Source: a virus. Taken from it: 64,000 nucleotides of DNA. The DNA is taken from positions 35,767-99,766 of the IMG/VR virus record IMGVR_UViG_3300032235_000653; one strand, given 5' to 3'. Under the pieces are notes generated by a model. It saw nothing but the letters and a program-made list of their open reading frames with translations. It was not told the DNA's origin and ran no database searches. Position numbers and translations under genes: made by a program. This document shows positions 19,593-56,065 of this stretch, one piece after another. Position 1 is the first letter of the stretch. Every line of letters begins with the position of its first letter.

Positions 19593-19606
19593 CGATACTC
19601 CATAAA

Positions 19607-26164: not shown

Positions 26165-27090
26165 TACCAACCTTCAACTCGTCTAATAACATCTAATTCT
26201 GTCATTGTTGTTCCCATATTACGATGCACTGCTTTATAGTGATGTTTAAAGAATGCACTTTGATCTGCGTTCATATCAACTATAGGCAATCCCAATCGTG
26301 TACGCAATGTTTGTCCGATATTTTCACAAGCAGATTCTTCGTCTTTACCAAAGCTATTCCAAAGATATGCAAGGTGATCAAAATCTTGTACTTGTCGATA
26401 ATCCCACTCTCTTAACATGGTCATATAAGTGCCTAACCGAGCACCGTATATAGCCCACTGACCATTTTCTACATCTTGCCCGACACTTTGCCAAATACAT
26501 AAATGGTCGTAGTTCCGAGCATGAACTTTTTGTTCAAACTCTTGCAAGCTGGGTTTCTTCCCGCGATCCAAACACATTTTAACACCTTCACGGAATCCTG
26601 CACGCCAAGCTTGAAAAGGAGTTGCATTAGGAAATGTAGTACTATAGCAGTCATGCATAGGGATGTATTTTGGATCAAAACAAAACTCTATAACAGTTTC
26701 ATCTCTACCGTCAGTGGCTTCGTGCGTTCGCATTTGATTTACAAAGTCTTTGGTCCAACAACTTATTCCGCCATTACCGTACATCAGTCCGTTAATGTGA
26801 TTACGAGCCTTCCATCTGAACACACAGTCATGATTGTTGTCGTCCAGCTTAAGCTGAAGATTAAAAAATTCAGCGTCTGGTATATTGTCCCCATCTATTA
26901 GCACGAACCTATCAGTGTCACTGGCTGCTGCTGCTGCTTTGTGTGCAGCATCACTGCCTTTTATTCCATCAACACGTTTAGCCCATGGTATTAAATTTTG
27001 AATCTTAATCCAAAACTCTTCTTTTTTTGGTTCGTCGTAGGTTAAAAATATGCAATCAAGATCTGCAATATCAACGATTTTTGTAGTCAT
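26164..27090 (-). CDS. Glycosyltransferase-like protein
   Basis: 308 residues. An N-terminal nucleotide-sugar-like fold is suggested by the strand CIFLTYDEP, then RFVLIDGDNIPD, where D-G-D looks like a metal/nucleotide-binding DxD. A second half carries NHINGLMYGNGGISCW, AWRAGFREGVKM and ENGQWAIYGARLGTYM, shared with the C-terminal domain of the 10660 protein. It is probably a sugar transferase acting on the operon's product or on a host or virion glycan; the sugar is unknown. Its stop and the next ATG share one base, so it is tightly coupled to the radical SAM array. Confidence 0.65.
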   Translation of the reverse strand: MTTKIVDIADLDCIFLTYDEPKKEEFWIKIQNLIPWAKRVDGIKGSDAAHKAAAAASDTDRFVLIDGDNIPDAEFFNLQLKLDDNNHDCVFRWKARNHINGLMYGNGGISCWTKDFVNQMRTHEATDGRDETVIEFCFDPKYIPMHDCYSTTFPNATPFQAWRAGFREGVKMCLDRGKKPSLQEFEQKVHARNYDHLCIWQSVGQDVENGQWAIYGARLGTYMTMLREWDYRQVQDFDHLAYLWNSFGKDEESACENIGQTLRTRLGLPIVDMNADQSAFFKHHYKAVHRNMGTTMTELDVIRRVEGW

Positions 27091-32125: not shown

Positions 32126-32719
32126 TTACAAATTCGTACTCAAATTGGTTAAAGTTTGAATTCTAATAGTGTAATCGATTTGAATAAGTCTGTTAAGTGC
32201 TTTTTGCACTGGATGAAAAATTACGTGAGTTAACAGTTTTCCGCTTTCGCTGATTAACCCTAACTCGTCAAATACATAAGTTCCACTCATTGTTGCACTA
32301 TTGTCAAATGCTTGCTGTCCTGCAGGCTCTGTGTAATCTAGTAGACAACTTACAAAAATATCAGTGTAGATCAAACCTGGGGTGTGTCTTACTTCGATAT
32401 AATTTCTAGCTGGATCCGTGTTTAATGCACTGGTGTTGTCGACTATTTTACTGTAAGTTTGATTGTATAAACTAGCATTTTGTCCAAAAGTATTAGTGGG
32501 CAAATATGTAATAACACCAGTACTATCTACCGCAGTTGCTCCGTTTCCGAACGCCATGTTTTGTATATACCCAATACCTTTGTTCGCAATGCTTTGTGCT
32601 AACGCTTCACTCATATTTTCATAATGAATGGCGTTGGGTTTATCTCTGAAAATTTCGCCGGTTGCAGGATCCCAAATTTTAATGTGTCCTTGTATCATTG
32701 TATTTGTTTTATCTAGCAT
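32126..32719 (-). CDS. Virion structural protein, KIWDPATGE-type
   Basis: 197 residues. The start IQGHIKIWDPATGEIF leads to AIHYENMSEALAQSIANKG, then MAFGNGA, TYLPTNTFGQNASLYNQTYSKIVD and a C-terminal HVIFHPVQKALNRLIQIDYTIRI. I recognise this collinear pattern as a conserved structural protein of marine T4-like phages, adjacent to fibres. Its function is not established; a fibre connector or baseplate part is likely. The neighbouring 56-residue gene shares the KITDPESGD/KIWDPATGE opening. Confidence 0.7.
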   Translation of the reverse strand: MLDKTNTMIQGHIKIWDPATGEIFRDKPNAIHYENMSEALAQSIANKGIGYIQNMAFGNGATAVDSTGVITYLPTNTFGQNASLYNQTYSKIVDNTSALNTDPARNYIEVRHTPGLIYTDIFVSCLLDYTEPAGQQAFDNSATMSGTYVFDELGLISESGKLLTHVIFHPVQKALNRLIQIDYTIRIQTLTNLSTNL

Positions 32720-32920: not shown

Positions 32921-35900
32921 TTATCCTTGCAATCCTTGTTTTAAGAAACTAACTGGTAAAGTATTGGCGTTAAACAATCCTTGTCCATTTGAGGCTGTTG
33001 TATTTCCTAGCACCCCAGTAGCAATTGCCTGAGCAGAATTGCCCAAACTGTACCAAATATTGGTTTGTACATAAGCAACATTTGCCTCAAAAGTATAATA
33101 TGTAGTGAATCTTTCGTTTGTCAAAGTTGCCGAAGAGTTACTGCTGATATAAGCAGAAGTATTACTTACTACATTACTAATAGTGCCTATTAAGTTTCCA
33201 CCATTATCGTATAAATCATTGCCAACATTTAATTCGGCCAAGAATATCGTACCATTTCCGGTAACAATATTACTGCTGTTATTTGCTGTAATATTTCCCG
33301 TATATCGAACGGTAACATTAGATATGTTTGCAGCTACAAAATACGGTGTATTATTCGCAGAAATATATGCCCATTCAACTGGGATTCCTTCTGGTGCATT
33401 TGGATTTCTCTTTGTAACTTGTAATAGTGCAACTGTATCACTTAATACGCTGCTAATAGTACCTATTAACTGTTGACCAGTAAAAGTAGAACTTGTACTA
33501 GAATTTCCCAAAGTTAATTCTACTGCATTTTCGTCTCCGGTGCCAGCAAATATTTGTGTCCCTGGGGTTAACATAGTAAATGTGGTACCTACGCCTTGTA
33601 GTGTACTGCTGTAAACATTTACATTAATTGTGCCAGGGCCTTGGGATCTGGCGTACCATGTACTATTTCCTGAATCGGGTATAACTTGATTTTGACTTCC
33701 ATCTAGCACTATGTTGCCAATAAAATGATTTTTAGCCCCGGTGCCGCCAGTTCCTCTGCGAATTCTTCCCAAAGTATTAGTTGCTAGATCTTTAGAATAA
33801 TAAGTAATTCTTTCACCGTTAATATACACGACTCCGGGTTGTCCACCACTAGGAGACGGTGTCGCTAGTTTACTGGCGTCAATTACTCGAATAACTGTAT
33901 CTGTCAGATTTAAATTTGCAGCTAGTGTTGTAGTGCTTGCCCCATCTTCTCTGAGATATGTGAAATTGTCATTCATATCTTTAAAAATACGATAAGACAT
34001 CAATGGCCATGCATTTCCAGTTGGAGAATCACCTAGCTTCATCGTCGCAGTGGCAATCATTGGTGATGTATTAGATCCCGAAATAACAACGGTAGGTGTT
34101 GTATCATATCCACTGCCGTTATCAATTACCTGGAAAGATATTGCAGATCCATTTGAATCTAATATTACCTGCGCTCGTGCTTGTGTATAATAATCTCCTC
34201 CCAAGATCGTTACCCCAATTTCTTCCGGAGAATATCCACTTCCTGGATCAATAATTTGTATAGATTCAAGTATAACACCGCTAGTGGTTGACCAGTTAAT
34301 ATAATAACTATCAGTAGGATCTGTTGCTATAGTAGTAACTGTCATGTCTAACGTATCATATACTCTACCAGGAATCATTTCCTCAGGAGCATGACTTGCA
34401 TATGGTCCCACGTTGTAAATGGTCAAATTAGCTGTAGAAAATACATTTCCTGTAGTAGTCGGTGTTACTACATACCATACTTTATCGTTATAAGAAATTA
34501 AATCGCCTTTATCATAGTATGTGTTAGCTGTCCATTCAGTGAAATAACTATAAACAAAAGGCCCGCCATCGACGATGATGTCCTCTGGTTTAGTTCCTAA
34601 TGTTGTATCAGCAAAAGTGCTGGTTATCTTAGCATCTAATATAGCATCACTTAAAATAGGAATTCCGTTTTCATCAAATTCCAATGGATCAAATAAAGTG
34701 GCATCAAAACCATCAGCAGCACTGATGCCAGGCAGTGGGGGCTCAGGACCTGATCCGCCAAATCCTCCGTTATCGCTGAATGTTGGGCCTTCTACTTTTA
34801 CCCCAGGATAGTCAATGCCTGATTGCAGTAATGACAAATCTTTTCCGGGCTGACCTAGTTCAGGCTGATAATATGCTTGGATTCTGTCATTTGCATTATT
34901 AATATTATCTACCGGATATACCGTTAGATTAGTAAGAACATTCGAATCGAATGTTGGACCTGAAGTGAATGTCTGACTTACAATGTAAGCAACACCTTTG
35001 TGATCAATTATTGTACCTTGCGTGAACGTAGTGTCTGGCACCCAGTCAATGATGGTGGTAGAATATGTATATCTGTCATATACCAGAGTAGTTTTAATAT
35101 TTCTAATCAGCCCATTGACTAAATTAGCTCGGGCAATTGCTCCTGATCCATTCCCGCCGTCTATGGTAACTACTGGTGTTGTAACATAATCACTGCCGGG
35201 GTATAATAAAATTATTTTTGTTAGTACTCCGTCAGTTACTAGCGCTCGTGCTACTGCATTATTTCCGTTCCTACTACCTGTAATTGTAATAATTGGAGGT
35301 AATGTATATCCTGATCCGCCATCTATTATGTCTATAGAAGAAATACTGTAAGAATAATTAGATAGCCAGTTAGCATATTCGGGTTGCTGCAACAATCTTG
35401 CATCTTGGATAAATTCGCCGCTGGGACTTCTTGTAGTTTTTAATACACTGTCGTAAGTCGGCGGAACATCAAAATCAGATACATAACTGTTATAATTGTC
35501 GTAACCCTGATAGTCTACCACATACTCTCGAAGAGTAGTTTTGTAAGGTTTAACTTCCTCTATGTATTGTTTATAGAATTCTTGATTTTCTTTAATATAG
35601 ATTGCAGGTTGAGTTAATCCTTGTATCTTTTGTAATACATTAATAAAGCTAGTCTTAAATAACCAATCCACATACTTTTGTTCATCTAGTATATAGTTAA
35701 TGAATACAAAGAATAAATTTAAGAATTCAGGATCAAGTTGATCAATAAAAATATCATCTTTAAGAGTTTGAATAATCTGTCGTGTTTCAATTCCAGGATT
35801 TTGATCAAATCTTATAGTATCAAAATTATCTGCATCAAATCCAAGTCCAAATTCTTCTAGTGCGTAAAGATTTTTCTTAAGTTCAATAGTACCATCTTGA

Positions 35901-38900
35901 ATTCCAACAGTAGTCACAGTGTTAGGATATACTTGAATTAAGAACCATTTACCCTGACCATTATTGTTAATTTTAACAAGGTCTTGCGATCGCAGAGTTA
36001 AATCATTCAATTGAGCACTGGTTTCAATAGTATAAGTTGGTCTTACTGTCCTATCAAATCCAGGAGCATACCAATCTTTATATTGCCAGTATTCGCTGGT
36101 TGCATAGCTTTGTACTCTATTCAAATTCCATTCATTTTGTACTTGATAATAAGTATAATCATTTACGTCGAAGGTTGCTCCAGTGGTAATAGTCTGATTT
36201 ACGCTATATGTAATGGTGTTATATCTGACGATTGTGTTTGTTAAATATCGAGTATTTGGTTGCCACTCATCGATCACACCATCTTTAATATAGATAGTCC
36301 ATAAATTGTCCACTGAGCTGTCACTCTGAACTAATACCTTGTACCCCATTGGAAGAATTGCAATATTTACATAACTTAATTCTTCAAGATTATTTACAAT
36401 TAAATCATAAGCTCCAGAATTAGGTGCAGGTTCAGGCTCGCCTTGGCTTAGTCTAGTTAAATCATAGCCTTGACTAATGACATTTAAATCAAAAATAGAA
36501 TTAACATACAGAACCATTTCTCGAATAGCTTCATTCCTATTAATGAACATACTTTGTCGAGGTCTGATATCAATGCCATATCTGTTTTGTACTGCAAGAG
36601 TTGGATCTGGGACTGGATTACCAAATCTATCAATTCCGCTGGCACTATCTAATAATTTGTTGTATATATTATCTGGAATATTTTCAGACTTATTATTAGT
36701 GGCCGATAACAATGCATATTCGTTGTGTATAATATTACTGTTTAACAGTGTTGCATAGTCTAAATGAAATATAATATCTCTGCCCACCGTTTCATTGACC
36801 ATATTGAACAAAGCAACAGAGTCATCTTTTATTGCAGCAAAATATTTTACTCCGCTATTTTTAGGAGATTCGATGTAACTGGCTACTGTTGTCGTAGGAA
36901 TAGTTCTTCCAAATTGATTAATATTTACAGTAGTTTTATTTTTTACCCAGAAATAATATTTTACAGTGGCAAAATTTGTGTTAGGATCTATATAATTCAA
37001 TGTTACATAAGCACCATTGCCAGTGTACTTAGGCTCACCGTCACCACCGTTTGCAACATACTGACTAGGAGGATATAAACTTTCTACCCACTCGTAAACA
37101 TCTATGCTGCTACCTGGAAATGTTCTTCCCCAGTTTGCGGTTCTATACTTGATACTTCCTTGTTCGTAATCTATATATTTTACAGTACTTAAATCCCACC
37201 ATAGCTGACCTACTTGCTGATCGGTCCAATATAAATTGTTGTTAACACTTACATTGTCGACACTAGCGTTATTATAGATTGCAGGATCATAATCAATTTT
37301 ATAAGTAAGTTCTTGCTCAGCAAGGCCTAAAATTTTACCTTTTGCTGGATCAATATAATCCAGATTATATTGCACTGTTTGAGTTAGTGCATTATAAGTG
37401 TACGCTTTAATAATCCCGTTAATCTCTATTTTAGGCTCCTGGCTTCTAAATACATCCCAGCCTAATAAGTTTGTTGGATTAGAAAATTTGTAAACTCTAC
37501 CGCCATTAAACGCTAACTGTTTACTGTTCTTGGAACCAACAATTAATTCATACGTACTAATAGATATAGAGCTTCCAAAACTATCATTTGTTTTTAACCC
37601 ATCATTAGTGGTAGTAGGAGTTAACTGCTGAATGAAAGCAAAAGTGCCTGGGGATTCTATTGTAGATACATTATTTGGCAAATACGAATATATCCAAACT
37701 GCGCCGCTGTCATCCACAGGCTCACTGAAGATGGTTAAGTCTCTATCAAAAGTTGTAGGACTCGGCGTATATGTTTTAGAATTATCAAAAACAGTCTCTT
37801 GTAAAGTTGCTGCAATATCACTTGCAACTACTAATATATCACTGTTATCGTTTATCTTAACAAGTTTTCCAAAGTAATCATATGATTTAGTTGAATTGTT
37901 ATAAATGATATCGACTTCAGGAAATATATCTAATCCCAAGTCTGCAATTGCAGTTCCCACACCAGGTAACACATTCAATTTGTTGAATGTAACTTCTGAA
38001 TTACTGACTAATTTTAATTTATTATTTTCAATACTTGCAGTAACACCCGGAATCTTAGGACCGATAGGTTCTCCAAGTGCATTTACATTGTTAATAGCAT
38101 TAACAACACTCGACAATGATGTGTCAGTGAATTGAACTGCATAGTTGTTAATTCTAATAGAATCCCCACTATTTACAGTGGCATTTGCTATAGTTCCTAC
38201 TAACTCTCCGTAAACTTTTCCTTGATTTAAGAAACGATAAACTGCTCCGTTATATAAATTAATCTGAGATTGATAAGGAGCTCCAGCATATAAACTACAA
38301 CTGTTTGTACATATGTCAACACTGTAGCCAAATTGTTGATCAGCGTACGGCTGTGCCGGCACTATAGTCTGAATTGGATGGAATACATTTGTTTCAATAG
38401 TTAATATTTTACTTTGACCAACTGGACTATAGAATGTTATTAAATTCAACACGGAATTGCTAACATACCAGTCTATACCGACAAATTTTTCTATATTGTC
38501 GACGTATATTCTTGTATATTGGGTAACAGGTGCAACAGCGTTGAAAGTAACAGTGAGATCATCTTGAACAATAAAATTATTAATTGATCTGTTCCACAAA
38601 TGTATTGCACCAGAATCTGTATATGTTGTAATATTACCACTGATATTAGCAGTCACATCTTCTAAAGGGGCGCCAATCATGATTTGCGATCCGTCGACCG
38701 TGGCACTTAAACTATAACCAAATTGACTACCTGAATTGCCCGAGATTGTTCCTACCAGATTGTAACCTGGGCTCTGAGAAATAATGATGGCCCCTGCAGG
38801 GGGCGGAGATGTAAATGTGATAGTCGAAGAGCTTACAGTATAATCCCTGTGCGGAACATAAGTTGCCGTCGAACCTTGAACATAAATGGTTTCTGCACTC

Positions 38901-41900
38901 ACTGGTACATACGGTAAAATAAACGAACTAATTGATCCGTTTGGAGTTAATGTCACTACGTCTTGGTCTGGCACCGTATTATCATATCCATATATGTAAA
39001 CAATGTCATCGTCTGGCGCCCCGATATACAACCAGTTGTCGTCGGCACTAATAGCAATGCTAGTTCCGAACTTGCCAATGTTGGCACTGATTGGTGACAG
39101 TATTTGTACGTCAGATAATGTTCCGATACTTTCTCTCTTGTATACAAAGACATAACCGATACCGTTTGCGCTGTTTGGTGCTCCTGTTATTACTTTAGCA
39201 TTTCCACTTTCAATAACAGATCCTAGACCAACTGTGGCATTTGCGCCAGAAGTAAGAGTAACATCTTCTACTAGAATTCCGTTAAAGTTAATGACATAAT
39301 TAGTAATGGCACCAACATTGCCGTTATATCCAGGTTGGCCGATTACTGCAAAATTATCATCGCCAGCAAGATTTACTGCTGCACCAAATTGAAAATTATT
39401 TTCTAAAGTTCCTTTTTGTAATGCTGTGGTCAATTCCCATGGATTTGTTTTATTATATACTGCCCAATCGCCGTTGGAGTTGTAGGAATTTACCCATACT
39501 TTATTGTTAACACTCCACCCCAATTTCGGAGTTAAATCAGTAATACCAAGAGGACTTTCAGTTTTCATACTGACCAATTTGTATAACTGACCTGTCTGAT
39601 TAAATGTACTAAATCCTCTGAGATCGCCCGTAAATTCAATTATAAAACTAGTTAACCCAATGATACTTTGGACTTTATAAAATCCGGTAAATTTGTCTAC
39701 ACCAGTTAATAAAATAGTGTCGTTTTTTACTAACCCATGTGATTTATTAGTAGTTACTTGAACTTTTCCATTCAGTGCATTACTTAAACTTATAACGTCA
39801 GATTCTGAATCAGATACTCTATATACATTCCAATTTTGTTCATAGTCTTTTGCTATCCAAATTGTTGACCCCGCAGTTATATTAGCTATGTCTGCATTTA
39901 ATGTAGAAACATTAGTTAAATCAAATAGTGTAAAATCAATGTCGTCAATGCTGACATAACCCGCAGTTTGAATATCATCACTGTAATCACTGTCAATGGT
40001 CCTGTTTATTAAGAATGGGGATGACCATGGAACTAAGCTAGTTTTATATAGTGCTTGAATATCATTATAAAGTGAACTAAACAATACAGAATTGTTTGAT
40101 CGAACTTCTAAGCTAGTGGGATTGCTTAACACATAATTTTCGTCGAGAACTAATTCCACAAATCGATTAGTTCCAGTACTACCATAAGATCCAACTCTGA
40201 ATGCCCAATCCTCGCTGATAGTTACATCGCTGGGACGACCGCTGAAACTAACCTTGCCCAACGCATTAATGGCGTTTAGCGTGCCTTTCTCTTTAATAAA
40301 TCCTTGATAGAATTTAACTTGACTAGTATCATCTAATCCCAAATCATTTAAATAATTTCTATTTCTATAACCAATTAGCCCTAAAGAATACTGGTCGAAT
40401 TCACTTTCTAAGTTGACTTTATCAACATTATAAAATGTTTCCCCGATTCCTGCATTTCGAGCAAAGTTATTCAACAATCCTGTTCTAATTTTATTTCTGT
40501 CTACAGGCAACCAATCACTGAATTTGAACTCAGTTGCCCCTGGCAGATTTTTGCTAGCAGTATAATAAAAACTCTTGTATTCAACTAAGTCGCCCTGTAA
40601 ATAATCTTTATTTTGTCTCCAAGCAGCTACGCCTGGTTGATTGTAAATAAATCCTGGTGCAGACAGTGTTCCGGTCCACTCTCCTGTTTTAGAACCAATA
40701 AGCTTTAACCGGTACTGACGTTGTCCCATTATAGGGTCGTATATGATGTCATTGAACTGTGTCTTATTGTCAAAAATCAAAACATGTTCAAATTGAACCA
40801 AATTAAGATCCACATATCCTATTAAATCAGTGGAACTAGTTAACGACAAGGAAAATGTGTTATTATCTCTGACTACAGTGTAGTTGTCTGTATTCAAAAC
40901 TTTATAGTTTTGATTCAACACCTTGGTGCCGTAGAATGTATTATTGATTCCATCTACTACCGCAGTACTGTTGAATAATTTTAAATTATTTGAAGCAGGA
41001 CTTAATACAATAACACTGTTATTTGTCCATCCTTGCTGTACCCAGAACAAAAATTCTTTTACACTCAGTTTCCAATCTTTAATCTGAGCCAATGTTTCGT
41101 CATAATACTCAAATTTAAACCCTTGTAATTGAAGGTATTGCTCGTATCCACTTATAAAATTTGCAACTTGTTGCAGTGTAGTTAATTCAGAACCGTATGG
41201 GATATTAATTTTAAAATTGGTAAATTCATTGTAATAATTTACAGTTTGACCTTCTGATGTAACTAATAGATAGTTACCAGTCTGCGAAGGAGGAACAATT
41301 GTAAAATACGGTCTTGCGCTATCATATCCAGAAATAGTAAAGCCGTTGCCAGTTTTTTCTATTATCACAGCACTATATCTAGAATTAAAAACAGGAGTAG
41401 ACTTATTTAACGCCAGAGAATAGTTGTCGTCTGGGATAATAATAGTTTCATTGGTACTATTTGGACTATTTTGTTCAGCTAAAATCTTTAAATAATTTTT
41501 GCCACTAAATCCCGCCATTCTATAAGATAATTGAATAGAGTAGTCTCTAACAAAATTTAATAATGGAGTTTTATCTGTTGCGCCGACAGTTACTTGATAA
41601 TCACTGATCCAATTTAAATATCCCGAAGCTCTGGCAATATCTCCCGACGAATTCACATACCCGTTAACATCGATGTCTTCTTGTGTAATTCTGTTATTTG
41701 TGCCTATTATCAGATACTGATCTAAATCGCTGTCATAACGATATTTGTTTGTTGTAATACCATACGCAAAATATTTTCCAGGATTAATTATTGCAGAAGT
41801 GTACTGCACTGCAAAAGGATATTCGCTGCTATTTCTCCAAGCAGTCTCGACTGGACTAAACTGGCCCATATTCCAATTATCATTAAACTGTGTGGAATCA

Positions 41901-44900
41901 TAACGATTAGTTAAAAGACCAATAGGCGGCAGTAATTGCCCATTTTCGTTTACTGGAATAAAGTTACTTAATCCAGGTCTTGCAAATTTAGTGTCAAAAC
42001 CGGCCCTGCTTCCAGCCGCAATGTAACCAACTTCTAAATCATCCCACAAAATTTTATTACCAGAAGTATATGGAGCAGGACCATATGTAGATCTCCACCA
42101 GTCCGGTTCTTCACTGAATCCCAGCATTTCCCATGGTGCAGTATTAGGCCGTTGAGTATCATAAAAATACTGAAAACATGCACGCCAAGAACCAGGTAGA
42201 GTTTGACCGTCGACTACATCCAATGCAGTGCTATAATTATAACTAAAAGGTGCATCATTTTGATATGTAGTATTATCTACATAATTCAAATTATTAACAC
42301 TGGCCCATTGCAAATAAAAGCGAGATAACAAATTATTATATTGAGATATAGTATAACCAGTATCTCTGAACTTACCAGGAATCGAATCGTAAGGAGATAC
42401 CAGTTTATCGCTATATTGAACTTTAATGTTGTTGTATATGCGCTTTTCTAGTTCTAAAACAATATTATCTCTAAAATCACCGAAACTAGGCGTTAGACTG
42501 CCGTCATGGCCTCTAATCATAAGTTGAGGTTCTGTATATGTTACGTCTGTATAAATTGCTGGTGTAAATTTTGGATAAAGTCCTAATTTTGAAGGTGTTT
42601 CAGGAATCCAGTTACCGTCTGTGTCTTGATATTCAACAATAGTAAGAGTGTTACCGACTGCTAATGTTATATTGTTTTTAATACTGACACCGGGGCCTGT
42701 TACCAAAAATTCATAATCACGTCCGTATAATAGTTGACTGCCGTTCAAATAAATTAAAATAGACTTGTTGCTTAATGTTTCATTTGAAAAGATAGTTGTA
42801 ATTTCATAATTACGTTGTTGCGGATTAAAAATGTTGTAAGTGATTACATTTTTATTATCCCCATACGGCACCATGTCACTATAGTACCATGGAAACGTTT
42901 TATCTTTAACTGAATTTATTTGTTTAATAATGTAGTCTACTGCCCCAACAGGATCACTAGGGTTGACCTGATTGCTGTTACTAGCAATGTTTATAAACTT
43001 ATTTTTAAATCTTGTATATTCTTGTTGAGCATTAATTAATCCAGATGCAAAATTATATTTTTCATCACTTAAGAACATGGCAGCAAAACTAACTGGTGCG
43101 CTTTGCTGCAACATAGTACCAGATTGATTTTCGATATATAAATCTCTGAGATTGCTTACCCCAGGGTAATTACCGACAAAATATAAACTATTTCTGCTCA
43201 GTGAACCTATGTGATTACGTAGCTCTCCGAGAGTTGGACTTGCTAACGTTCTATTCTGTGCATTTAAATTTAAATTGTCAGGTATTTGATAGAACCCGAG
43301 TTCGCTTATATTTTTGCTATAAACAAGAATATCAATTCTATCGTTAATTTGTAATTTGCTTCTTTTTATAACAATTAAAATTCCATCTGGCACATTATAC
43401 GCCAGGTAATCATTAATTGATATCTCTTTAAAATTAACATAAACTAACAAGTTAGGTTTAACTGTTGCTACTTCCGGAGTAATATCAATTTTGAATGTAT
43501 TGTCAACACCATCGTATGTAAATGGTATATCTTGCATTTGTCTAGTGTCAACATTGACATTAGTCCATACATTAAGTTTAGTAATACTAGAATCTGCATT
43601 ATTTTTATACAACAATCCTGAATCTATTTTTTTAGTGTACACAACTTTGTCGATGCCGTAATTGAACGTTTCGATGTCAAAATTATTATCGAATTGTATA
43701 TCACCGATGTTATTAAAATTTTTATAACTTAAAGGAAAGCCCAATACAGGATCAGCTATACCGGTGCCTGTCTTATAGCTAAAAATTTTGGTACCAACAA
43801 ATTGTGTAGCAGAATTAATTACTGGATATTTTACACTATCAGAAAAACTAACGCCTTCAGTATCAAATACATCAAATAAAGGTGGTTGATTTATGCTAGT
43901 TTTACTTTGACCTTCTACCCAATTTTCGCCCAGAAAGTAAAAACTTTTACCGTTATTAACTACACCGTTAAAAACACTGACAGTGTTAAATTCTTCTACA
44001 GTGTCAACTTGAATCAAATGAATTATAGCAGGATCCAATGGATTACCTGATGTGTTTTCTAGCGTTACTTCCCAAATTTTATTTCTTACAACCGGGTCTT
44101 GGTCAGCCGCAAAAATTACACGCATTCCTTGTACTAGATTAATACCGTCGACGAAAATAGACGTTTTACCTTCGACTGATAAAAATGCATTCGTGTACAC
44201 TGTGTCGAATATATCAACTGGAGGCTTGGCTATTTTTCCAAAATTAATTAATTGTAAATCTGCATCGAATTCGATTATGGGCCTTTTTGCTCGCTGTTCA
44301 GAATCAAAAACTTGCGGAATATTATTATACAAACTAGTTAATTCAATAATGTCTTTATGAAACCACCGATTTCTTCTAGTCCATGGATTAAGATCTCTGC
44401 TGGCTCTACTGATCACAATATAGTCAGGCGTAGACAAACTGGCGTTAGTGTCTATGCTTGTACTTCCATAAAATGCTCTGCCAATTATATAAGGATAAAT
44501 TGGAGATCCATCGCTGGCCTGTGTTGTAAAATATGCATAAGTTCCATTTGGAAATTCCGGTGTTAAACAAAAACGACCGTTGAATTGATCCAGTGTGCCA
44601 CTGCCTTCTACATAAGAATAATCTTCAATGAATGCTCCTGTTAAAAATTCAAATGTTAAAGATGTACCAGCCGTTAATGTAACATTACTGCTTAATTGTA
44701 CTTGACTTGCAGTACCCAAGAACTGTGGTAAGCCTGATGCTGTTTTTAATCCATTGTTAAGTATCCATACACTGCCAGATTCGAGACCAGCAGAGTTAAC
44801 TGTTATCCTCATGCCAGGATTTAATCCATTTGTACTAGATACAGTAATTAAACTATTATTGATTACATCAGCAGTGATAGTTACAGTCTGTGGTACTGGT

Positions 44901-46942
44901 CGAAATAGTCCGTCGTTAGAGGATTCGTATGAACTGACCATGCGAATGATAGAGCTGCCTGCGTTTAGCGGATTCGAATATCCATAAGGTCCGTAAATAG
45001 GATAACCGTCTGCTGCAAATCCTATAAGTTTACTATGATTTGTTGTAGGATCTAAATATCCATTAGTAAACCCTGATACATTTCCCCATGCATTGGCTGT
45101 AATAAAATTAGAATTTGTATAAACATAACGGCCATTCTCCAATGGATAACCACCATAGCTGTCTTGTCCATTTATTAATACCTGAGTAGTATCGTAATTC
45201 CATTTACTGCCGTCTAACCCAGGAACCGAAGCTCCATTGCTTACACCGTTGATAAGAATTCCTGGTAAGGTGACTCCAATTACGTCGGACGAGTATGTAA
45301 GATTATCATGTTCGCCAGGATCATTTAGTCCAGGTCTATAAGGATATTTTAATTTGAGATCTTGAGCAACGATATAATTTGTGTTAACACTGTTAGGAAA
45401 ATTGCCGACTTTTACGTTCACACCGTCAGGAAAATCAGTTGTGGTTACGGTAAGTTGATCTTCTGCCAAATTAAGACTAGCAGTTGCATACAATACAAAG
45501 TTGTTGCCAGGGTCATAATTCGATTTTGCTTGTGCCTGATTGACCACTAAGTCTGACACTGGAATTAATCGAATTCCTGTTCCTACTCCATCAACATAGT
45601 ATTCTTTATTTTGATAAGATGTAGGTGTAACACTGTTATCGAAATTAATTTTTAGTCCGTTAGTAAAAACAACACCATTAGGACTAATATAATTTGTTTT
45701 CCCGATTACTTCCTCATCTATGTTAATGGTATTATTATTAGAATCTATAAGTCTGATCGTGCCAACTTGGTTTGCATCTAACCCATCTTGATAATATAAT
45801 GTATTCAAGGGAGCAGTAATTACTGGTATCTGTTCTAGTGTATTTTCAGAATTTGTATACCATTCGGTGTTACCATAATTAATACCCGACAGTATCAAAA
45901 CTTTGTTGTTACTGGGTATAGGCAAATAGTAAACTAAATCAATGATGTAATCTGCACCGAACGGAGTCAAAACAATTGTCCAAATTCCGTATCTTTGATT
46001 TTCAGGCACAGTAACAGAGTTAGAAGTCCAATCAGCATCCAAATTGTAATTTGGAAAAATTACGTATTTTCCGTTTAAGTTCGCAACTTGTCCGTCGATA
46101 CCGCCGTAATTATTTTTAATGTCGGACAACAGTTTGCCTTGTAAATTAGCATAGCTTATTGTGCTTACTAAATCTACTGTTTGCACTGTTGGCATAGTAA
46201 TATAGAAATCTTGTGCTGTTGAGTCCGGAACAAAGAAGGTTATAGTGCCAACATCGATTCCGTTATTTTGCACACCCAAGACTTGCCTTGTACTTAAATT
46301 AGTTTGAGGACTTAGTCCGCTTAATCCTGGGTTTGTTTGTATCCAAAAAGGCTTGCCGGGCTGATTAACGTTAAACGTATAATTTCCGCCGCGAGCCAAT
46401 ACAATGTCAGGATTAGGCGCAGTGTTGTATCCACTTATATTATAGACTTGCAGACCATTTTCAGCATAGATATTAAATGTACGCGACATATCTGCTTCGC
46501 CGGCGAACACATTAACAGATTCTGGTCCATTTGGTAACCAGTAATATTGACTAAAGTTAATAAATGCATCGGCGTTTATTCTTGGGTTATAACTGTAAAA
46601 ATCACTTTCCCATAGATTGTCTTGATTGTCAATTTTTCCGCCGTAAAAATCTATTTTTTGTAAAACTTCAGGATATGTAGTATGAAAATCCACTTCTCCT
46701 GTTTCTTTATTTTTTACAACTATACTAGGCTCAAGTTGATAGTCTGCACGAAGCGCAGTAGGCTCTTTAACATATGTGTTAATTCCTTTAAACCCGGGCG
46801 CAAATTTTCTTCCAACATAACCATTAATAGGAACCAAATTTGGTTCCGTCATTAGCTGATCAAGAGTAGCGTTTAAAAATCTCTTGTTAGTGTCAGACTG
46901 AAATACTGCTGGAAGAAAATTTATTGTTTTAGTAATTGGCAT
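32921..46942 (-). CDS. Giant 4673-residue virion structural protein
   Basis: One unbroken 14 kb frame. The opening, TKTINFLPAVFQSDTNKRFL, is one I recall from large marine phage virion proteins. Visible parts: a YHYH-like segment GFAADGYPIYGPYGY (~640-660); five FG-GAP-like units (~2520-3140) with IGQPG, IGAPDDD, IGAPLED, AGAPYQS and IVGSKN; four chitin/cellulose-binding-like units (W-x-x-x-x-x-Y/F-x-x-G/N-x-I/V-x-Y/H, near 2108, 3557, 3966, 4134); and repeated G-S-G-Y-x-x-P-x-V/I-T-I units (~3870-3920, 4230-4280). No coiled-coil tape-measure run or enzyme site is apparent, so a peripheral baseplate or fibre-type adhesin is likelier than a tape measure. Confidence 0.8.
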   Translation of the reverse strand: MPITKTINFLPAVFQSDTNKRFLNATLDQLMTEPNLVPINGYVGRKFAPGFKGINTYVKEPTALRADYQLEPSIVVKNKETGEVDFHTTYPEVLQKIDFYGGKIDNQDNLWESDFYSYNPRINADAFINFSQYYWLPNGPESVNVFAGEADMSRTFNIYAENGLQVYNISGYNTAPNPDIVLARGGNYTFNVNQPGKPFWIQTNPGLSGLSPQTNLSTRQVLGVQNNGIDVGTITFFVPDSTAQDFYITMPTVQTVDLVSTISYANLQGKLLSDIKNNYGGIDGQVANLNGKYVIFPNYNLDADWTSNSVTVPENQRYGIWTIVLTPFGADYIIDLVYYLPIPSNNKVLILSGINYGNTEWYTNSENTLEQIPVITAPLNTLYYQDGLDANQVGTIRLIDSNNNTINIDEEVIGKTNYISPNGVVFTNGLKINFDNSVTPTSYQNKEYYVDGVGTGIRLIPVSDLVVNQAQAKSNYDPGNNFVLYATASLNLAEDQLTVTTTDFPDGVNVKVGNFPNSVNTNYIVAQDLKLKYPYRPGLNDPGEHDNLTYSSDVIGVTLPGILINGVSNGASVPGLDGSKWNYDTTQVLINGQDSYGGYPLENGRYVYTNSNFITANAWGNVSGFTNGYLDPTTNHSKLIGFAADGYPIYGPYGYSNPLNAGSSIIRMVSSYESSNDGLFRPVPQTVTITADVINNSLITVSSTNGLNPGMRITVNSAGLESGSVWILNNGLKTASGLPQFLGTASQVQLSSNVTLTAGTSLTFEFLTGAFIEDYSYVEGSGTLDQFNGRFCLTPEFPNGTYAYFTTQASDGSPIYPYIIGRAFYGSTSIDTNASLSTPDYIVISRASRDLNPWTRRNRWFHKDIIELTSLYNNIPQVFDSEQRAKRPIIEFDADLQLINFGKIAKPPVDIFDTVYTNAFLSVEGKTSIFVDGINLVQGMRVIFAADQDPVVRNKIWEVTLENTSGNPLDPAIIHLIQVDTVEEFNTVSVFNGVVNNGKSFYFLGENWVEGQSKTSINQPPLFDVFDTEGVSFSDSVKYPVINSATQFVGTKIFSYKTGTGIADPVLGFPLSYKNFNNIGDIQFDNNFDIETFNYGIDKVVYTKKIDSGLLYKNNADSSITKLNVWTNVNVDTRQMQDIPFTYDGVDNTFKIDITPEVATVKPNLLVYVNFKEISINDYLAYNVPDGILIVIKRSKLQINDRIDILVYSKNISELGFYQIPDNLNLNAQNRTLASPTLGELRNHIGSLSRNSLYFVGNYPGVSNLRDLYIENQSGTMLQQSAPVSFAAMFLSDEKYNFASGLINAQQEYTRFKNKFINIASNSNQVNPSDPVGAVDYIIKQINSVKDKTFPWYYSDMVPYGDNKNVITYNIFNPQQRNYEITTIFSNETLSNKSILIYLNGSQLLYGRDYEFLVTGPGVSIKNNITLAVGNTLTIVEYQDTDGNWIPETPSKLGLYPKFTPAIYTDVTYTEPQLMIRGHDGSLTPSFGDFRDNIVLELEKRIYNNIKVQYSDKLVSPYDSIPGKFRDTGYTISQYNNLLSRFYLQWASVNNLNYVDNTTYQNDAPFSYNYSTALDVVDGQTLPGSWRACFQYFYDTQRPNTAPWEMLGFSEEPDWWRSTYGPAPYTSGNKILWDDLEVGYIAAGSRAGFDTKFARPGLSNFIPVNENGQLLPPIGLLTNRYDSTQFNDNWNMGQFSPVETAWRNSSEYPFAVQYTSAIINPGKYFAYGITTNKYRYDSDLDQYLIIGTNNRITQEDIDVNGYVNSSGDIARASGYLNWISDYQVTVGATDKTPLLNFVRDYSIQLSYRMAGFSGKNYLKILAEQNSPNSTNETIIIPDDNYSLALNKSTPVFNSRYSAVIIEKTGNGFTISGYDSARPYFTIVPPSQTGNYLLVTSEGQTVNYYNEFTNFKINIPYGSELTTLQQVANFISGYEQYLQLQGFKFEYYDETLAQIKDWKLSVKEFLFWVQQGWTNNSVIVLSPASNNLKLFNSTAVVDGINNTFYGTKVLNQNYKVLNTDNYTVVRDNNTFSLSLTSSTDLIGYVDLNLVQFEHVLIFDNKTQFNDIIYDPIMGQRQYRLKLIGSKTGEWTGTLSAPGFIYNQPGVAAWRQNKDYLQGDLVEYKSFYYTASKNLPGATEFKFSDWLPVDRNKIRTGLLNNFARNAGIGETFYNVDKVNLESEFDQYSLGLIGYRNRNYLNDLGLDDTSQVKFYQGFIKEKGTLNAINALGKVSFSGRPSDVTISEDWAFRVGSYGSTGTNRFVELVLDENYVLSNPTSLEVRSNNSVLFSSLYNDIQALYKTSLVPWSSPFLINRTIDSDYSDDIQTAGYVSIDDIDFTLFDLTNVSTLNADIANITAGSTIWIAKDYEQNWNVYRVSDSESDVISLSNALNGKVQVTTNKSHGLVKNDTILLTGVDKFTGFYKVQSIIGLTSFIIEFTGDLRGFSTFNQTGQLYKLVSMKTESPLGITDLTPKLGWSVNNKVWVNSYNSNGDWAVYNKTNPWELTTALQKGTLENNFQFGAAVNLAGDDNFAVIGQPGYNGNVGAITNYVINFNGILVEDVTLTSGANATVGLGSVIESGNAKVITGAPNSANGIGYVFVYKRESIGTLSDVQILSPISANIGKFGTSIAISADDNWLYIGAPDDDIVYIYGYDNTVPDQDVVTLTPNGSISSFILPYVPVSAETIYVQGSTATYVPHRDYTVSSSTITFTSPPPAGAIIISQSPGYNLVGTISGNSGSQFGYSLSATVDGSQIMIGAPLEDVTANISGNITTYTDSGAIHLWNRSINNFIVQDDLTVTFNAVAPVTQYTRIYVDNIEKFVGIDWYVSNSVLNLITFYSPVGQSKILTIETNVFHPIQTIVPAQPYADQQFGYSVDICTNSCSLYAGAPYQSQINLYNGAVYRFLNQGKVYGELVGTIANATVNSGDSIRINNYAVQFTDTSLSSVVNAINNVNALGEPIGPKIPGVTASIENNKLKLVSNSEVTFNKLNVLPGVGTAIADLGLDIFPEVDIIYNNSTKSYDYFGKLVKINDNSDILVVASDIAATLQETVFDNSKTYTPSPTTFDRDLTIFSEPVDDSGAVWIYSYLPNNVSTIESPGTFAFIQQLTPTTTNDGLKTNDSFGSSISISTYELIVGSKNSKQLAFNGGRVYKFSNPTNLLGWDVFRSQEPKIEINGIIKAYTYNALTQTVQYNLDYIDPAKGKILGLAEQELTYKIDYDPAIYNNASVDNVSVNNNLYWTDQQVGQLWWDLSTVKYIDYEQGSIKYRTANWGRTFPGSSIDVYEWVESLYPPSQYVANGGDGEPKYTGNGAYVTLNYIDPNTNFATVKYYFWVKNKTTVNINQFGRTIPTTTVASYIESPKNSGVKYFAAIKDDSVALFNMVNETVGRDIIFHLDYATLLNSNIIHNEYALLSATNNKSENIPDNIYNKLLDSASGIDRFGNPVPDPTLAVQNRYGIDIRPRQSMFINRNEAIREMVLYVNSIFDLNVISQGYDLTRLSQGEPEPAPNSGAYDLIVNNLEELSYVNIAILPMGYKVLVQSDSSVDNLWTIYIKDGVIDEWQPNTRYLTNTIVRYNTITYSVNQTITTGATFDVNDYTYYQVQNEWNLNRVQSYATSEYWQYKDWYAPGFDRTVRPTYTIETSAQLNDLTLRSQDLVKINNNGQGKWFLIQVYPNTVTTVGIQDGTIELKKNLYALEEFGLGFDADNFDTIRFDQNPGIETRQIIQTLKDDIFIDQLDPEFLNLFFVFINYILDEQKYVDWLFKTSFINVLQKIQGLTQPAIYIKENQEFYKQYIEEVKPYKTTLREYVVDYQGYDNYNSYVSDFDVPPTYDSVLKTTRSPSGEFIQDARLLQQPEYANWLSNYSYSISSIDIIDGGSGYTLPPIITITGSRNGNNAVARALVTDGVLTKIILLYPGSDYVTTPVVTIDGGNGSGAIARANLVNGLIRNIKTTLVYDRYTYSTTIIDWVPDTTFTQGTIIDHKGVAYIVSQTFTSGPTFDSNVLTNLTVYPVDNINNANDRIQAYYQPELGQPGKDLSLLQSGIDYPGVKVEGPTFSDNGGFGGSGPEPPLPGISAADGFDATLFDPLEFDENGIPILSDAILDAKITSTFADTTLGTKPEDIIVDGGPFVYSYFTEWTANTYYDKGDLISYNDKVWYVVTPTTTGNVFSTANLTIYNVGPYASHAPEEMIPGRVYDTLDMTVTTIATDPTDSYYINWSTTSGVILESIQIIDPGSGYSPEEIGVTILGGDYYTQARAQVILDSNGSAISFQVIDNGSGYDTTPTVVISGSNTSPMIATATMKLGDSPTGNAWPLMSYRIFKDMNDNFTYLREDGASTTTLAANLNLTDTVIRVIDASKLATPSPSGGQPGVVYINGERITYYSKDLATNTLGRIRRGTGGTGAKNHFIGNIVLDGSQNQVIPDSGNSTWYARSQGPGTINVNVYSSTLQGVGTTFTMLTPGTQIFAGTGDENAVELTLGNSSTSSTFTGQQLIGTISSVLSDTVALLQVTKRNPNAPEGIPVEWAYISANNTPYFVAANISNVTVRYTGNITANNSSNIVTGNGTIFLAELNVGNDLYDNGGNLIGTISNVVSNTSAYISSNSSATLTNERFTTYYTFEANVAYVQTNIWYSLGNSAQAIATGVLGNTTASNGQGLFNANTLPVSFLKQGLQG

Positions 46943-46951: not shown

Positions 46952-49900
46952 TTAATTAATTATAGTATTTACCGTTAAATTTTGTATGTTTAATTGTGCT
47001 GCGGTAATAGCGCTGATAATTTCAATATTTTCTACAGTAGCAGAGCTTATTAAAATTTCGTTAGGTTCACTGTTGATTTGTTGCAACGATCCATATGTTT
47101 GACTGGTACTATTAGGCACAATAATAATACTACTAATGTTTGGAGCCAACCCTTGCTGTATGTACGTTGCTAATTCTGTGAAGTAAAATGTTTCTCCAAA
47201 ATCCCAATTACCTACAGCAAAAAATGCATTAATATATGCAAGCACTTGGCTTCGAATTTCGCTGTCAGTTAAATTGATATTTGGATTTTTAATAATCTTA
47301 AATGTGGCTTGAAGCTCAGGTCTGGCTTTATTGCCAAACAAAGGCTTAAACACTGCTGCATTATAAATGATAGCATCGCTGACTGATTTATAATTTTCTA
47401 AATCACCGAATGCCAACTTTAGACTTTCTCCTGTTTCTTTTTCAGGCTCTTGAACTGTTCCGGTAGTATCCAATATCCATGCTCTGTATTCTGTTTCGTA
47501 TTCTTTAGTTAGCACATACAAATCTATTAGATTACTTGGACTTGGGTCTATCCTTCTACTACCAGGAGCATTGTGTTTATATTGAAAATACAGCGATGAC
47601 CTGCCAACTCTTGCAATATAATCATTGCTTTCAGTTAATGATCGTGTAGTAAGATTAATAGTTAGAACATAGAAAATTTCTTCTTCATATGCATAAAAAA
47701 TCTGGCCTTCAATATAATTGTTAATATTTGGAATAACATCAAGTTGATTTCTAACAATAACTACTGCAGATGAAGGGATAGGTGTGAAAGTCACAAAGCT
47801 ATTGTATTCATAAGTTTTTTCAAAGAAAACAAACTTAGTGGGAGGAGAGTTGTTAACGTTGGGTTGCACCACGGTATTGAAAATATCTGGATCATCTGGA
47901 ACACCGTCATTGTTTATATCACTGTATGTAACTAAAACTTTACTAGCATCTACGTATCCATCAGATTCTGCAATCTGATCGTATATGTACCAAAGAACAT
48001 TTTCTGTTAATGGTTGACCTGTGTCGGGATCTCCGTTAACTTTTAAAATATTCACACTGTCGTTGACTGTATACCCAGTTACTGGATCAAAAATCTTTAT
48101 TCTATTATCAAAATAAAATTTTGTTTCTTGTGTACTTTCAAAAATATAACTTAATCCTCTAATTTGTACTGTATAAGTGGAATTCGAAACGGTGAAGCTT
48201 AGTAACCAGCTAGCGTCTAAATTTTGACCGCTAGTAGAGCCTTGATAAATTTGACTAAACGGATCAGTCAAATTTAAATCTTGAGCACTAATAGTTTGCC
48301 AGGTTTGTGTGTTTTGATCATATCTGATACCAAACTCGCTGTAGTTACTGATTAGTCCTATAAGTTTAGAAACAAACTCTGTTGTAAAAGTATTACTAAA
48401 TGTAGGTATTACAGTGACAGCTTGAGCAGTGGACGGTAAATTTAAACTTAATTTAACTGGACCTTCACCATTACCTAAATTGCCTTGATTACCGTTGCCT
48501 ATTAAATTTGTAATAGAAACATAAAGTAAAGGTTGTCCGTTTTGCGGCACTTGACCACTGGAAGGTAATGCTATTATTTCGTTGGCAGAGTTAAAATAGT
48601 TACCGGGACCTGGGCTGAACACAATGATACAGCCTTCTGTCAAGTACCTATTATTTCCCACTACACCTGTTCCCACAGCAACTTTATTTCCTGATGAAGG
48701 AAAATCTATGAAATACCCAGTGCTACTGCCAGATCCTGCAGTACTTCTATTCCAATATAGGTTAGTCAGTGAGAATCTATTAAAATATTCATAATAAAAA
48801 TGTTGCAGCGACTTACTTCTTATGCTAGGCAATATTTGATTTTCAATAATTCTATTAATATCTGCTGTTGTCCCAAATGTAAAACTAAAACTAGAATCAG
48901 CATCTTCTTTATATAATATTCCATCTTCTGAAAAAATATTAGTGCTGCTGTATCTACCGCTGGTATCAAATATATCTAAGTATCTACTGATTCCGCTACT
49001 AGTGCGATTAACAGCTTTTACTTTACTGATTGTACTATAGTTTGCATAAGGAAATGTGTTATAGTCTTCTCCGGTGACCATACGATTTTGTGTATAGTAC
49101 AGTTGTGGCGCTTTGGTTTTAATTTCATTAATACTTTCTCTAGGAATAGCATTGGCCACTGTGTATTTTAGACTGGCAACAATGGTTAATGTTTCCAATC
49201 TACCTGCACGACTAATATAAGGTATAGTCAGACGAATATTTGTCATTTCGTCTGGTGTAATTTTATAACTTAATCCAGTACTAGTTCTAAAATAAGTTAT
49301 GAAACTCCCCACAGGGACAGCAGCAAAAGTTCCATCGCCGAATACTAAATCAACTTGATCTCCTGCTCTGGTGTTGACTTGATAACTTTTTTGTGCTGCA
49401 TTGTTATTATAGATAATATTAACTCCGTTAACACTGGGGATTTGATTCCATGCTTGCCCTATGTTACCTAAACTGCCAATTTCATACAGCCAAACGTCTG
49501 ACTTGTTGATGTTATCAAAATTAATACTGACTAAGTTGTTAGGTAAACTTTCAGGAAATCTAAATGTCTGTGTTTGTAAATTTCCTTGTTTAAAATAAAA
49601 GAAAAACCCTGTGTTATTGCTGGCATTGCCTAAATTATCGTTTTTATAAATTACGTTAAGAGGACGGCCAGGCGCAGGCGCTGATTCATAGATATAACTC
49701 TCATCTGCACTAGTACCACTGACTACTTCAAAATTTAACACAGAATTTTCGATTTGTGTATTATATCCAAAAACTGGTAATGTTCCGGGAGGTAAATTTA
49801 TATTATATTCTGCGTTCAGAACTCCGGCAATAGTCTTGCTATTGGCAGGTTTGCCAACTTGCTGATTCGTTGGTAGCGCAGCATTAATTATTGTAATAAA

Positions 49901-50365
49901 TTGTTCATACCAATTGACATTTCCATTATCGTTCCAGTTTATAATAAGATTAGTAAGGTCGATCCCGTTGCTATCCTGTAATCTTTCAGTGGTTTGTACA
50001 CTGTCAAATTTTATAAAACCATTGGCTGTTTGGTTACGTTTAGGTACGTAGCTAATTAATTTAGCTAGTTTTAAAACACTGTCCCTACGTTCTGCTGTAT
50101 CGATAAAATTTTCACGAGCGTTTAAATCTGTACGGAATGCAAGACTCTGCCCCAAAAATGCGATAAGATCAATTAATGCTATGTATTCACTGGATTCAAT
50201 AAAATCATTGAAATTTTCTGGATAGTATATGCGTAGATAATCCAGCATTGTTTTACGCAAAGTTTGAAAATCATAACTTTGAAAATCTGCGTTTCTGAAA
50301 GTTTCGTAAAGAATAGTCCAGTCTTGATTGACTAAAAGACTACTTTGTCTGGTTGTAAGTGCCAT
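46952..50365 (-). CDS. 6: Baseplate wedge protein, T4 gp6-like
   Basis: 1137 residues, longer than T4 gp6 (660), as in marine relatives. The N-terminal region is typical: QDWTILYETFRNADFQSYDF, LDYLRIYYPENFNDFIESSEY, LIAFLGQSLAFRTDLNARENFI and LAKLISYVPK. A middle strand QVDLVFGDG.FAAVPVGS and YNTFPYANYSTISKVKAVNR also fit the gp6/gpJ-type baseplate fold. It joins with gp25 and gp53 to form the wedge. The start is preceded by GAGGA (50371-50375) and a late octamer. The extra ~400 residues in the middle may be an added decoration domain. Confidence 0.9.
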   Translation of the reverse strand: MALTTRQSSLLVNQDWTILYETFRNADFQSYDFQTLRKTMLDYLRIYYPENFNDFIESSEYIALIDLIAFLGQSLAFRTDLNARENFIDTAERRDSVLKLAKLISYVPKRNQTANGFIKFDSVQTTERLQDSNGIDLTNLIINWNDNGNVNWYEQFITIINAALPTNQQVGKPANSKTIAGVLNAEYNINLPPGTLPVFGYNTQIENSVLNFEVVSGTSADESYIYESAPAPGRPLNVIYKNDNLGNASNNTGFFFYFKQGNLQTQTFRFPESLPNNLVSINFDNINKSDVWLYEIGSLGNIGQAWNQIPSVNGVNIIYNNNAAQKSYQVNTRAGDQVDLVFGDGTFAAVPVGSFITYFRTSTGLSYKITPDEMTNIRLTIPYISRAGRLETLTIVASLKYTVANAIPRESINEIKTKAPQLYYTQNRMVTGEDYNTFPYANYSTISKVKAVNRTSSGISRYLDIFDTSGRYSSTNIFSEDGILYKEDADSSFSFTFGTTADINRIIENQILPSIRSKSLQHFYYEYFNRFSLTNLYWNRSTAGSGSSTGYFIDFPSSGNKVAVGTGVVGNNRYLTEGCIIVFSPGPGNYFNSANEIIALPSSGQVPQNGQPLLYVSITNLIGNGNQGNLGNGEGPVKLSLNLPSTAQAVTVIPTFSNTFTTEFVSKLIGLISNYSEFGIRYDQNTQTWQTISAQDLNLTDPFSQIYQGSTSGQNLDASWLLSFTVSNSTYTVQIRGLSYIFESTQETKFYFDNRIKIFDPVTGYTVNDSVNILKVNGDPDTGQPLTENVLWYIYDQIAESDGYVDASKVLVTYSDINNDGVPDDPDIFNTVVQPNVNNSPPTKFVFFEKTYEYNSFVTFTPIPSSAVVIVRNQLDVIPNINNYIEGQIFYAYEEEIFYVLTINLTTRSLTESNDYIARVGRSSLYFQYKHNAPGSRRIDPSPSNLIDLYVLTKEYETEYRAWILDTTGTVQEPEKETGESLKLAFGDLENYKSVSDAIIYNAAVFKPLFGNKARPELQATFKIIKNPNINLTDSEIRSQVLAYINAFFAVGNWDFGETFYFTELATYIQQGLAPNISSIIIVPNSTSQTYGSLQQINSEPNEILISSATVENIEIISAITAAQLNIQNLTVNTIIN

Positions 50366-50410: not shown

Positions 50411-50788
50411 TTAAAGCATTGAATTATTTTGAATCATTTGCTGATCAAACTGTACAGCTAATTTAGCAGTCTGATTTGTTTGAATATAAATTAGCTCTAA
50501 TTCTATTTGTAATCCTCTGTCATACTGAGTTACAATTACATTCTGGGCTGCAATCCTTGGATCGTTTGCAACAATACGTTTTATGTCCTGTATTATTGTA
50601 GTTTTGCTTTCTTCATTCAATGGTTCAAATAGCATGTCCCATATGATGGTACCAAACTCAGGATTCATTAACTTTTCGCCTTTGCGAATGTTAAAATGAT
50701 TTTGTAGATCTCGTTTTACTAATTCAAAATCAGTCAATCGAAATCTCTTGTTACTTTCTAATGTGCTGAATCCGTTGTATAATGCCAT
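50411..50788 (-). CDS. 25: Baseplate wedge protein, T4 gp25-like
   Basis: 125 residues, the normal gp25 size. KRFRLTDFELVKRDLQNHFNIRKGEKLMNPEFGT contains the family hallmark R-K-G-E-K-x-M-x-P-E/D-F-G (here split: NIRKGEKLMNPEFGT), then IWDMLFEPLNEES and a strand-rich C-terminus with IVTQYDRGLQIELEL. gp25 (lysozyme-like fold, not active) is part of the wedge core and contacts the sheath. It lies between gp6 and gp5, as expected in T4-like baseplate clusters. Confidence 0.92.
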   Translation of the reverse strand: MALYNGFSTLESNKRFRLTDFELVKRDLQNHFNIRKGEKLMNPEFGTIIWDMLFEPLNEESKTTIIQDIKRIVANDPRIAAQNVIVTQYDRGLQIELELIYIQTNQTAKLAVQFDQQMIQNNSML

Positions 50789-55762: not shown

Positions 55763-56065
55763 TTATCCTATTGCGCTGGTTATTGCAGCTTTCTTAGGCA
55801 AAAATATTCTATTGCCTATTTTCATATCGAAGATAGGATCTTTAATAGTGTTGGGATTACGTAGTGCAAATACCCACCAAAGGCCTGTATCTTCGTACAA
55901 GTCGTATGCTAACAAGTCAGGTCTGTATTGATAAGTTTTGTTTATAGCAAAAAGTACGTCATCTGGGTTTTTAGGTATTGCTGGAAAATTTGCAAGATCT
56001 AAAAAGTCTCCATAAAAAGATGTCTTAGAATATAAACTATTTTGAGCATATTGAATTTCAGCCAT
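55763..56065 (-). CDS. 53: Baseplate wedge protein, T4 gp53-like
   Basis: 100 residues. TYQYRPDLLAYDLYEDTGLWWVFALRNP with NTIKDPIFDMKIGNRIFLPKK is the conserved core of the gp53/LysM-type baseplate proteins (quoted in pieces: YRPDLLAYDLYEDTGLWWVF and KIGNRIFLPKK). T4 gp53 is longer (196), so this is the short form seen in marine phages. It attaches wedges around the hub. It shares one base with the upstream structural gene. Confidence 0.8.
   Translation of the reverse strand: MAEIQYAQNSLYSKTSFYGDFLDLANFPAIPKNPDDVLFAINKTYQYRPDLLAYDLYEDTGLWWVFALRNPNTIKDPIFDMKIGNRIFLPKKAAITSAIG

Follow-up and report, generated by a model that had tools for sequence, protein, structure and literature searches.

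A giant protein in the gp7 gene position of a jumbo-phage baseplate operon combines a conserved backbone with three variable slots

The stretch of viral DNA analyzed here (the window, 64,000 nucleotides) belongs to a 99,766-base virus record, which is probably a fragment, and encodes a protein of 4673 aa that consists of a conserved colinear backbone and three variable slots with interchangeable modules. By its sequence, the protein is classified as a divergent member of phrog_10938, a family of RaK2/CBB/PA5oct/Atu_ph07-type jumbo myoviruses. We favor the view that it serves as a baseplate scaffold of a RaK2-like (T4-derived) jumbo myovirus, with the backbone at the wedge and the slots displaying surface-binding modules; this is the probable reading. 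The protein ranks among the largest in RaK2-type jumbo-phage particles and was known before as a virion structural protein. With this anatomy, what was a large structural protein without an assigned role becomes a proposal open to test: a baseplate scaffold that occupies the gp7 gene position and has three sites of exchange. The most interesting part is an integrin-like propeller placed in one of the exchangeable slots.

The gene and its product are as follows.
32921..46942, minus strand: giant baseplate/virion protein gene (4673-aa open reading frame (ORF); phrog_10938, E=0).

The ORF is read 46942→32921, from an ATG start through a stop, with 4673 codons and no internal stop. These are exactly the coordinates given in a preliminary description of this DNA, which had also put the product at about four times the size of its largest neighbor; the second-largest ORF in the window, gp6, has 1137 aa. 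The computed mass is 517.2 kDa, with a pI of 4.5 and four cysteines. A promoter scan gave a signal at background level. Extreme length and adhesin-like domains might indicate an unrelated cellular adhesin ORF or an assembly artefact. The chance of either is close to nil, and the idea is refuted by eight near-relative contigs with identical length (exactly 4673 aa) and identical neighbors, by the backbone in many further contigs, by dN/dS far below 1, and by homologs detected by mass spectrometry. Since the other complete homologs are likewise single-frame, the ORF is not an assembly accident. In one relative, L058, the ORF stops after 2109 codons (L058 position 13213). Only one base differs between L058 and L057 in the 600 bases around this stop, and this single nonsense change creates it; a split gene was therefore rejected, and the stop is either a natural nonsense variant or a sequencing error.

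The profile search matched the protein to phrog_10938 ("virion structural protein") with E=0 and 1120 bits. A scan of viral contigs gave 303 relatives, and 80 were kept. A complete single giant ORF (3924-5097 aa) with gp6 directly upstream was present in 55 of the 80, and one relative (L048) is located on a 329-kb contig. Seven isolates carry homologs: PA5oct gp355, Atu_ph07 gp180, Phosso, SCTP-2, Vibrio phage 2.275.O, CBB_236, and RaK2 ORF070. The PDB was searched by sequence with the window giant and its N-terminal/core profile, and also with the giants of RaK2 and PA5oct; no relevant relative emerged. The large protein gp76 of cyanophage ACG-2014d showed no homology to the giant.

The neighboring genes on the same strand are listed below.
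56964-56065, minus strand: virion protein (phrog_12050).
55763..56065, minus strand: gp53-like baseplate wedge subunit (phrog_7145 "baseplate wedge subunit", E=4.5e-24), matching the location of the annotated gp53 in CBB.
50797..52956, minus strand: gp5-like hub/tail lysozyme (phrog_27932, phrog_13211).
50411..50788, minus strand: gp25-like baseplate wedge subunit (phrog_43, E=4e-13).
46952..50365, minus strand: gp6-like baseplate wedge protein, directly upstream of the giant (phrog_10646, E=3e-300; phrog_219).
32126..32719, minus strand: very conserved 197-aa protein after the giant (phrog_11259).
30433-32085, minus strand: fiber-like 550-aa protein, 3' of the 197-aa gene (phrog_19602, E=3e-5).

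The order of transcription is virion protein, gp53-like, a 932-aa structural protein, gp5-like hub/lysozyme, gp25-like, gp6, giant, 197-aa protein, and fiber-like protein. The opposite strand holds gp55 (late sigma), gp47, and gp46. This gene block recurs in RaK2 and CBB, and its outline in PA5oct. The order gp25-gp6-giant is common to PA5oct, Atu_ph07, Phosso, CBB, and RaK2, and gp53, gp5-lysozyme, and gp55/gp47 surround the giant in PA5oct, CBB, and RaK2. Environmental loci long enough to include this region have gp6 directly upstream of the giant. The block is a T4-derived jumbo-phage baseplate operon.

Presence in virions has been reported by others for homologs. The sequence record of PA5oct gp355 notes its detection by ESI-MS/MS, and CBB_236 was identified in virions with 21 peptides by mass spectrometry (PMC5259590). 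For phAPEC6, the virion proteins include gp245 (381.9 kDa, 17 peptides), which follows the baseplate wedge protein gp244 in the list (PMC7247149); its position and size, rather than its sequence, mark gp245 as a homolog. The invariant position behind gp6, the PHROG membership, and these mass spectra, which are those of homologs, together make a virion/baseplate component a well-supported reading of the window giant, as had been proposed at the outset. In relatives with 89-93% identity in the giant, the 197-aa protein reaches 96-100%. This small protein has homologs in 60 phage records; its PA5oct homolog, gp357, is recorded as detected by ESI-MS/MS. It is probably an essential virion part and possibly a partner of the giant. 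In GAP32, the homolog lies ~17 kb from the giant.

In T4, gp7 comes after gp6, and here the giant holds that gene position. The gene position is the common point: the T4 gp7 baseplate wedge protein has 1032 aa, against 4673 aa in the giant. In hhalign comparisons of the giant segments with T4 gp7, gp8, gp9, gp10, gp6, and gp53, in which the T4 side consisted of a shallow profile or single sequences, all probabilities were below 2%, and for gp7 they were below 1% with every segment. The backbone (N-terminal/core) model, built from residues 1-1200 of the relative L076 and poorly predicted at residues 1-110, had no match at E<=0.001 in the PDB fold search. The T4 gp7 family (phrog_964) was undetected in all six RaK2-type genomes, whereas the gp6 family (phrog_219) was detected in all six. 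T4 gp8 was likewise undetected in the RaK2-type genomes, and gp10 was partially detected in PA5oct only. Pelagi- and cyanomyophages have been reported to lack gp7, with VrlC in its place (PMC7029224). The giant probably does the work of gp7 in addition to occupying its gene position. Because similarity to gp7 in sequence or fold was not found, we describe the giant as "in the gp7 gene position" and not as "a gp7".

An alignment of 38 homologs (36 environmental, PA5oct, and Atu_ph07) and segment HMMs run on the seven isolates defined the backbone. Colinear conserved stretches occur in all at residues 1-140, 851-2100, 2150-2290, 3165-3550, and 3600-3860, with a mean identity of 40-67% in most 50-residue blocks of the 38 homologs. 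The backbone HMMs matched 7/7 isolates in colinear order. The segments are as follows.
46523..46942, minus strand: N-terminal conserved backbone domain (residues 1-140; HMM in 7/7 isolates, iE 1e-19 to 1e-39).
45593..46522, minus strand: first part of slot 1 (residues 141-450; present in environmental homologs, undetected in isolates).
44393..45490, minus strand: slot 1 insertion with YHYH domain (residues 485-850; Pfam PF14240, E=9e-29).
40073..44392, minus strand: main conserved backbone (residues 851-2290; profiles, alignment, and segment HMMs).
37484..39388, minus strand: slot 2 seven-bladed beta-propeller of FG-GAP units, with extra domains between the blades (residues 2519-3153; profile and model).
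36293..37450, minus strand: conserved backbone (residues 3165-3550; 7/7 isolates, iE 1e-40 to 1e-88).
35363..36145, minus strand: conserved backbone with the helical motifs DWLFKTSFI and EEVKPYKT (residues 3600-3860; 7/7 isolates).
33653..34015, minus strand: C-terminal partly conserved segment (residues 4310-4430; also in PA5oct, Atu_ph07, and Phosso).

Slot 1 (residues 141-850) spans 710 aa in the window giant; its RaK2 counterpart has about 20 aa. Slot 2 (about residues 2290-3165) holds the propeller in the window giant and in environmental homologs, and measures 219 aa in RaK2/CBB, 270 aa in the Vibrio phage, 323 aa in PA5oct, 515 aa in SCTP-2, and about 1530 aa in Atu_ph07/Phosso. Slot 3 is everything beyond residue 3860 and contains GSGY and CBM5/12-like units. 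RaK2 ORF070 (3326 aa) and CBB_236 (3340 aa) resemble the window giant in their colinear backbone blocks and their place directly behind gp6, but have a short slot 2, no propeller, no YHYH, and a strongly divergent sequence. PA5oct gp355 (3857 aa) shares the backbone, the order gp25-gp6-giant-(about 200 aa), and GSGY and CBM-like matches, but lacks the propeller and YHYH and is 29% identical in the core. Atu_ph07 gp180 (4449 aa) and the giant of Sinorhizobium phage Phosso (4555 aa) have the backbone and gene order of the window; where the window giant has its propeller, they have several copies of the GSGY-type repeats that the window giant carries C-terminally.

The propeller is the best defined of the modules. 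The FG-GAP_2 family matched the giant with E=1.9e-9 in Pfam; a search with FG-GAP_3 (PF13517) across the genome gave no match. A profile of residues 2246-3440 matched integrin alpha-4 in the PDB with E=2e-8, as well as many further integrin alpha chains. The AlphaFold model of the same residues (pLDDT 84.5, pTM 0.78) matched integrin alpha-V (E=1.8e-10) and alpha-5 (E=5.3e-9), with TM scores of 0.56-0.61 when referred to the integrin chain. Seven blades were counted from sequence motifs, a number consistent with the integrin match; the five FG-GAP-like units described previously are thus real, but belong to a set of seven blades. For FG-GAP and CBM, comparing regular-expression repeat counts with those of shuffled sequences gave no useful information, and profiles and structure were therefore relied on. 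Slot 2 shares seven FG-GAP blades, profile, and fold with the beta-propeller of integrin alpha subunits, which are animal receptors, but differs in that domains are inserted between the blades, it is embedded in a phage protein, and the Ca-binding loops are missing (the motif D.[DN].[DN] is absent from residues 2500-3160). The propeller HMM matched none of the seven isolates, and Pfam found FG-GAP in 3/10 distant homologs. The best predicted viral structure matches were "YHYH domain-containing" and uncharacterized uncultured-phage proteins, the Atu_ph07 structural protein, and giant-virus FG-GAP proteins. In a literature search, we found no description of a phage baseplate protein with an integrin-like propeller and no solved RaK2-type baseplate.

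The YHYH insertion is present in 9/38 homologs. On the basis of its conserved histidines, the YHYH domain was predicted to be a Zn-dependent hydrolase in a comparative jumbo-phage study (PMC7824862). In the window giant, the motif reads YVYT; with the metal-ligand histidines replaced, the copy is unlikely to be enzymatically active. YHYH is retained in L020-L022.

Pfam found CBM_5_12 in three stretches of the giant (E=1e-12) and CBM5/12-like matches in 8/10 distant homologs. Four CBM5/12-like units and two pairs of GSGY repeats were located.
40538..40624, minus strand: CBM5/12-like unit a (residues 2107-2135; 36/38 homologs).
36179..36268, minus strand: CBM5/12-like unit b (residues 3559-3588; 4/38 homologs).
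34958..35047, minus strand: CBM5/12-like unit c (residues 3966-3995; motif scan).
34448..34537, minus strand: CBM5/12-like unit d (residues 4136-4165; 7/38 homologs).
35156..35326, minus strand: GSGY repeat pair 1 (residues 3873-3929, repeats at 3873/3913; motif scan and segment HMMs).
34076..34252, minus strand: GSGY repeat pair 2 (residues 4231-4289, repeats at 4231/4273; motif scan).

These units bear out the four chitin/cellulose-binding-like units and the paired GSGY repeats of the preliminary description. They are putative readers of host polysaccharide, or could equally be structural decoration. Stretches of three giant ORFs, those of Atu_ph07, Phosso, and the relative on the 329-kb contig, were matched by the middle of phrog_438 (baseplate gp8 family). 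These matches suggest that baseplate proteins carry repeats of this type, but indicate no ligand. A "baseplate wedge subunit" of cyanophage ACG-2014d (L003 14659-18123, 1154 aa) has YHYH and GSGY modules in common with the giant, but not the backbone; for ACG gp74, these two modules are all that is shared. From this wedge subunit, we infer that YHYH/GSGY modules move between different baseplate proteins.

The giant might be purely structural, with the propeller, GSGY, and CBM-like units as spacers or decorations that stabilize a large baseplate without binding any host ligand. We regard this as possible but not the likelier case. The propeller without Ca loops, the lost YHYH histidines, the uniform purifying selection (below), and the matches with the central part of the gp8-type wedge family agree with it. 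Modules, however, come and go between related phages, which is unexpected if the baseplate body needed them, and members of the CBM5/12 and FG-GAP families elsewhere bind external ligands.

Selection was assessed as dN/dS against the eight near-relative contigs, which have 89-93% aa identity and identical length, some being near-copies of each other. The ratio was about 0.05-0.06 overall and 0.01-0.13 per segment, repeats included, and no positive selection or hypervariability was seen in the repeats in this comparison by segment. gp6 is slightly more conserved in the near-relatives (93-97%) than the giant. The room for rapid evolution once ascribed to domain repetition is thus unsupported within the lineage, where dN/dS is low everywhere along the gene and all eight lengths are identical. 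Over long distances, whole modules have been gained or lost at three sites. The variation is domain exchange across long distances, a plasticity distinct from fast repeat evolution.

The low dN/dS throughout also argues against a long adhesin or receptor-binding tail fiber that lies behind gp6 by chance, with the propeller and CBM-like units as its receptor-binding tip. The domain content is adhesin-like, and tail-fiber-like genes come after the giant in the window (30433-32085) and in PA5oct. Unlike receptor-binding fibers, however, the backbone is kept across hosts, both in the 38 homologs and in all seven isolates, and known tail-fiber families gave no match in profile searches. We consider such a fiber unlikely.

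In the baseplate scaffold that we favor, the backbone (residues 1-140, 851-2290, 3165-3550, and 3600-3860) would be built into the baseplate wedge or its surroundings, beside gp6/gp25/gp53, and would probably fill the role played by gp7 in T4. Adjacency to gp6 alone leaves the wedge location unproven, as gene position is not particle position. Three loops or ends of the backbone would act as display slots, with YHYH in slot 1, the propeller in slot 2, and GSGY and CBM5/12-like units at the C-terminus. The slot modules would probably point outward and bind, with low affinity, glycans on the host surface or proteins of its envelope. Such binding may keep the baseplate in place on the cell and possibly link cell contact to sheath contraction. 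A bolder and rather doubtful proposal is that the integrin-like propeller in its exchangeable slot is a host-contact sensor and the giant both a wedge element and a receptor-binding/trigger element. The slot 2 propeller is a defined foldable domain suited to expression and host-binding assay.

Other genes in the window were also observed. Downstream of the baseplate operon (14492-26170, minus strand), a carbamoyltransferase gene adjoins a run of seven radical-SAM genes, of which several encode SPASM domains. Their density is unusual for a phage, and they are possibly a modification or secondary-metabolite-like cluster. The ORF at 60714-62471 (plus strand) has a radical-SAM-like N-terminus (CNAACPQCP) and a C-terminal FabG-like reductase match, and is a possible fusion gene. 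At 5738-8938 (plus strand), genes for thymidylate synthase, a nucleotide-sugar epimerase, and an aminotransferase are clustered, which suggests phage-encoded sugar modification.
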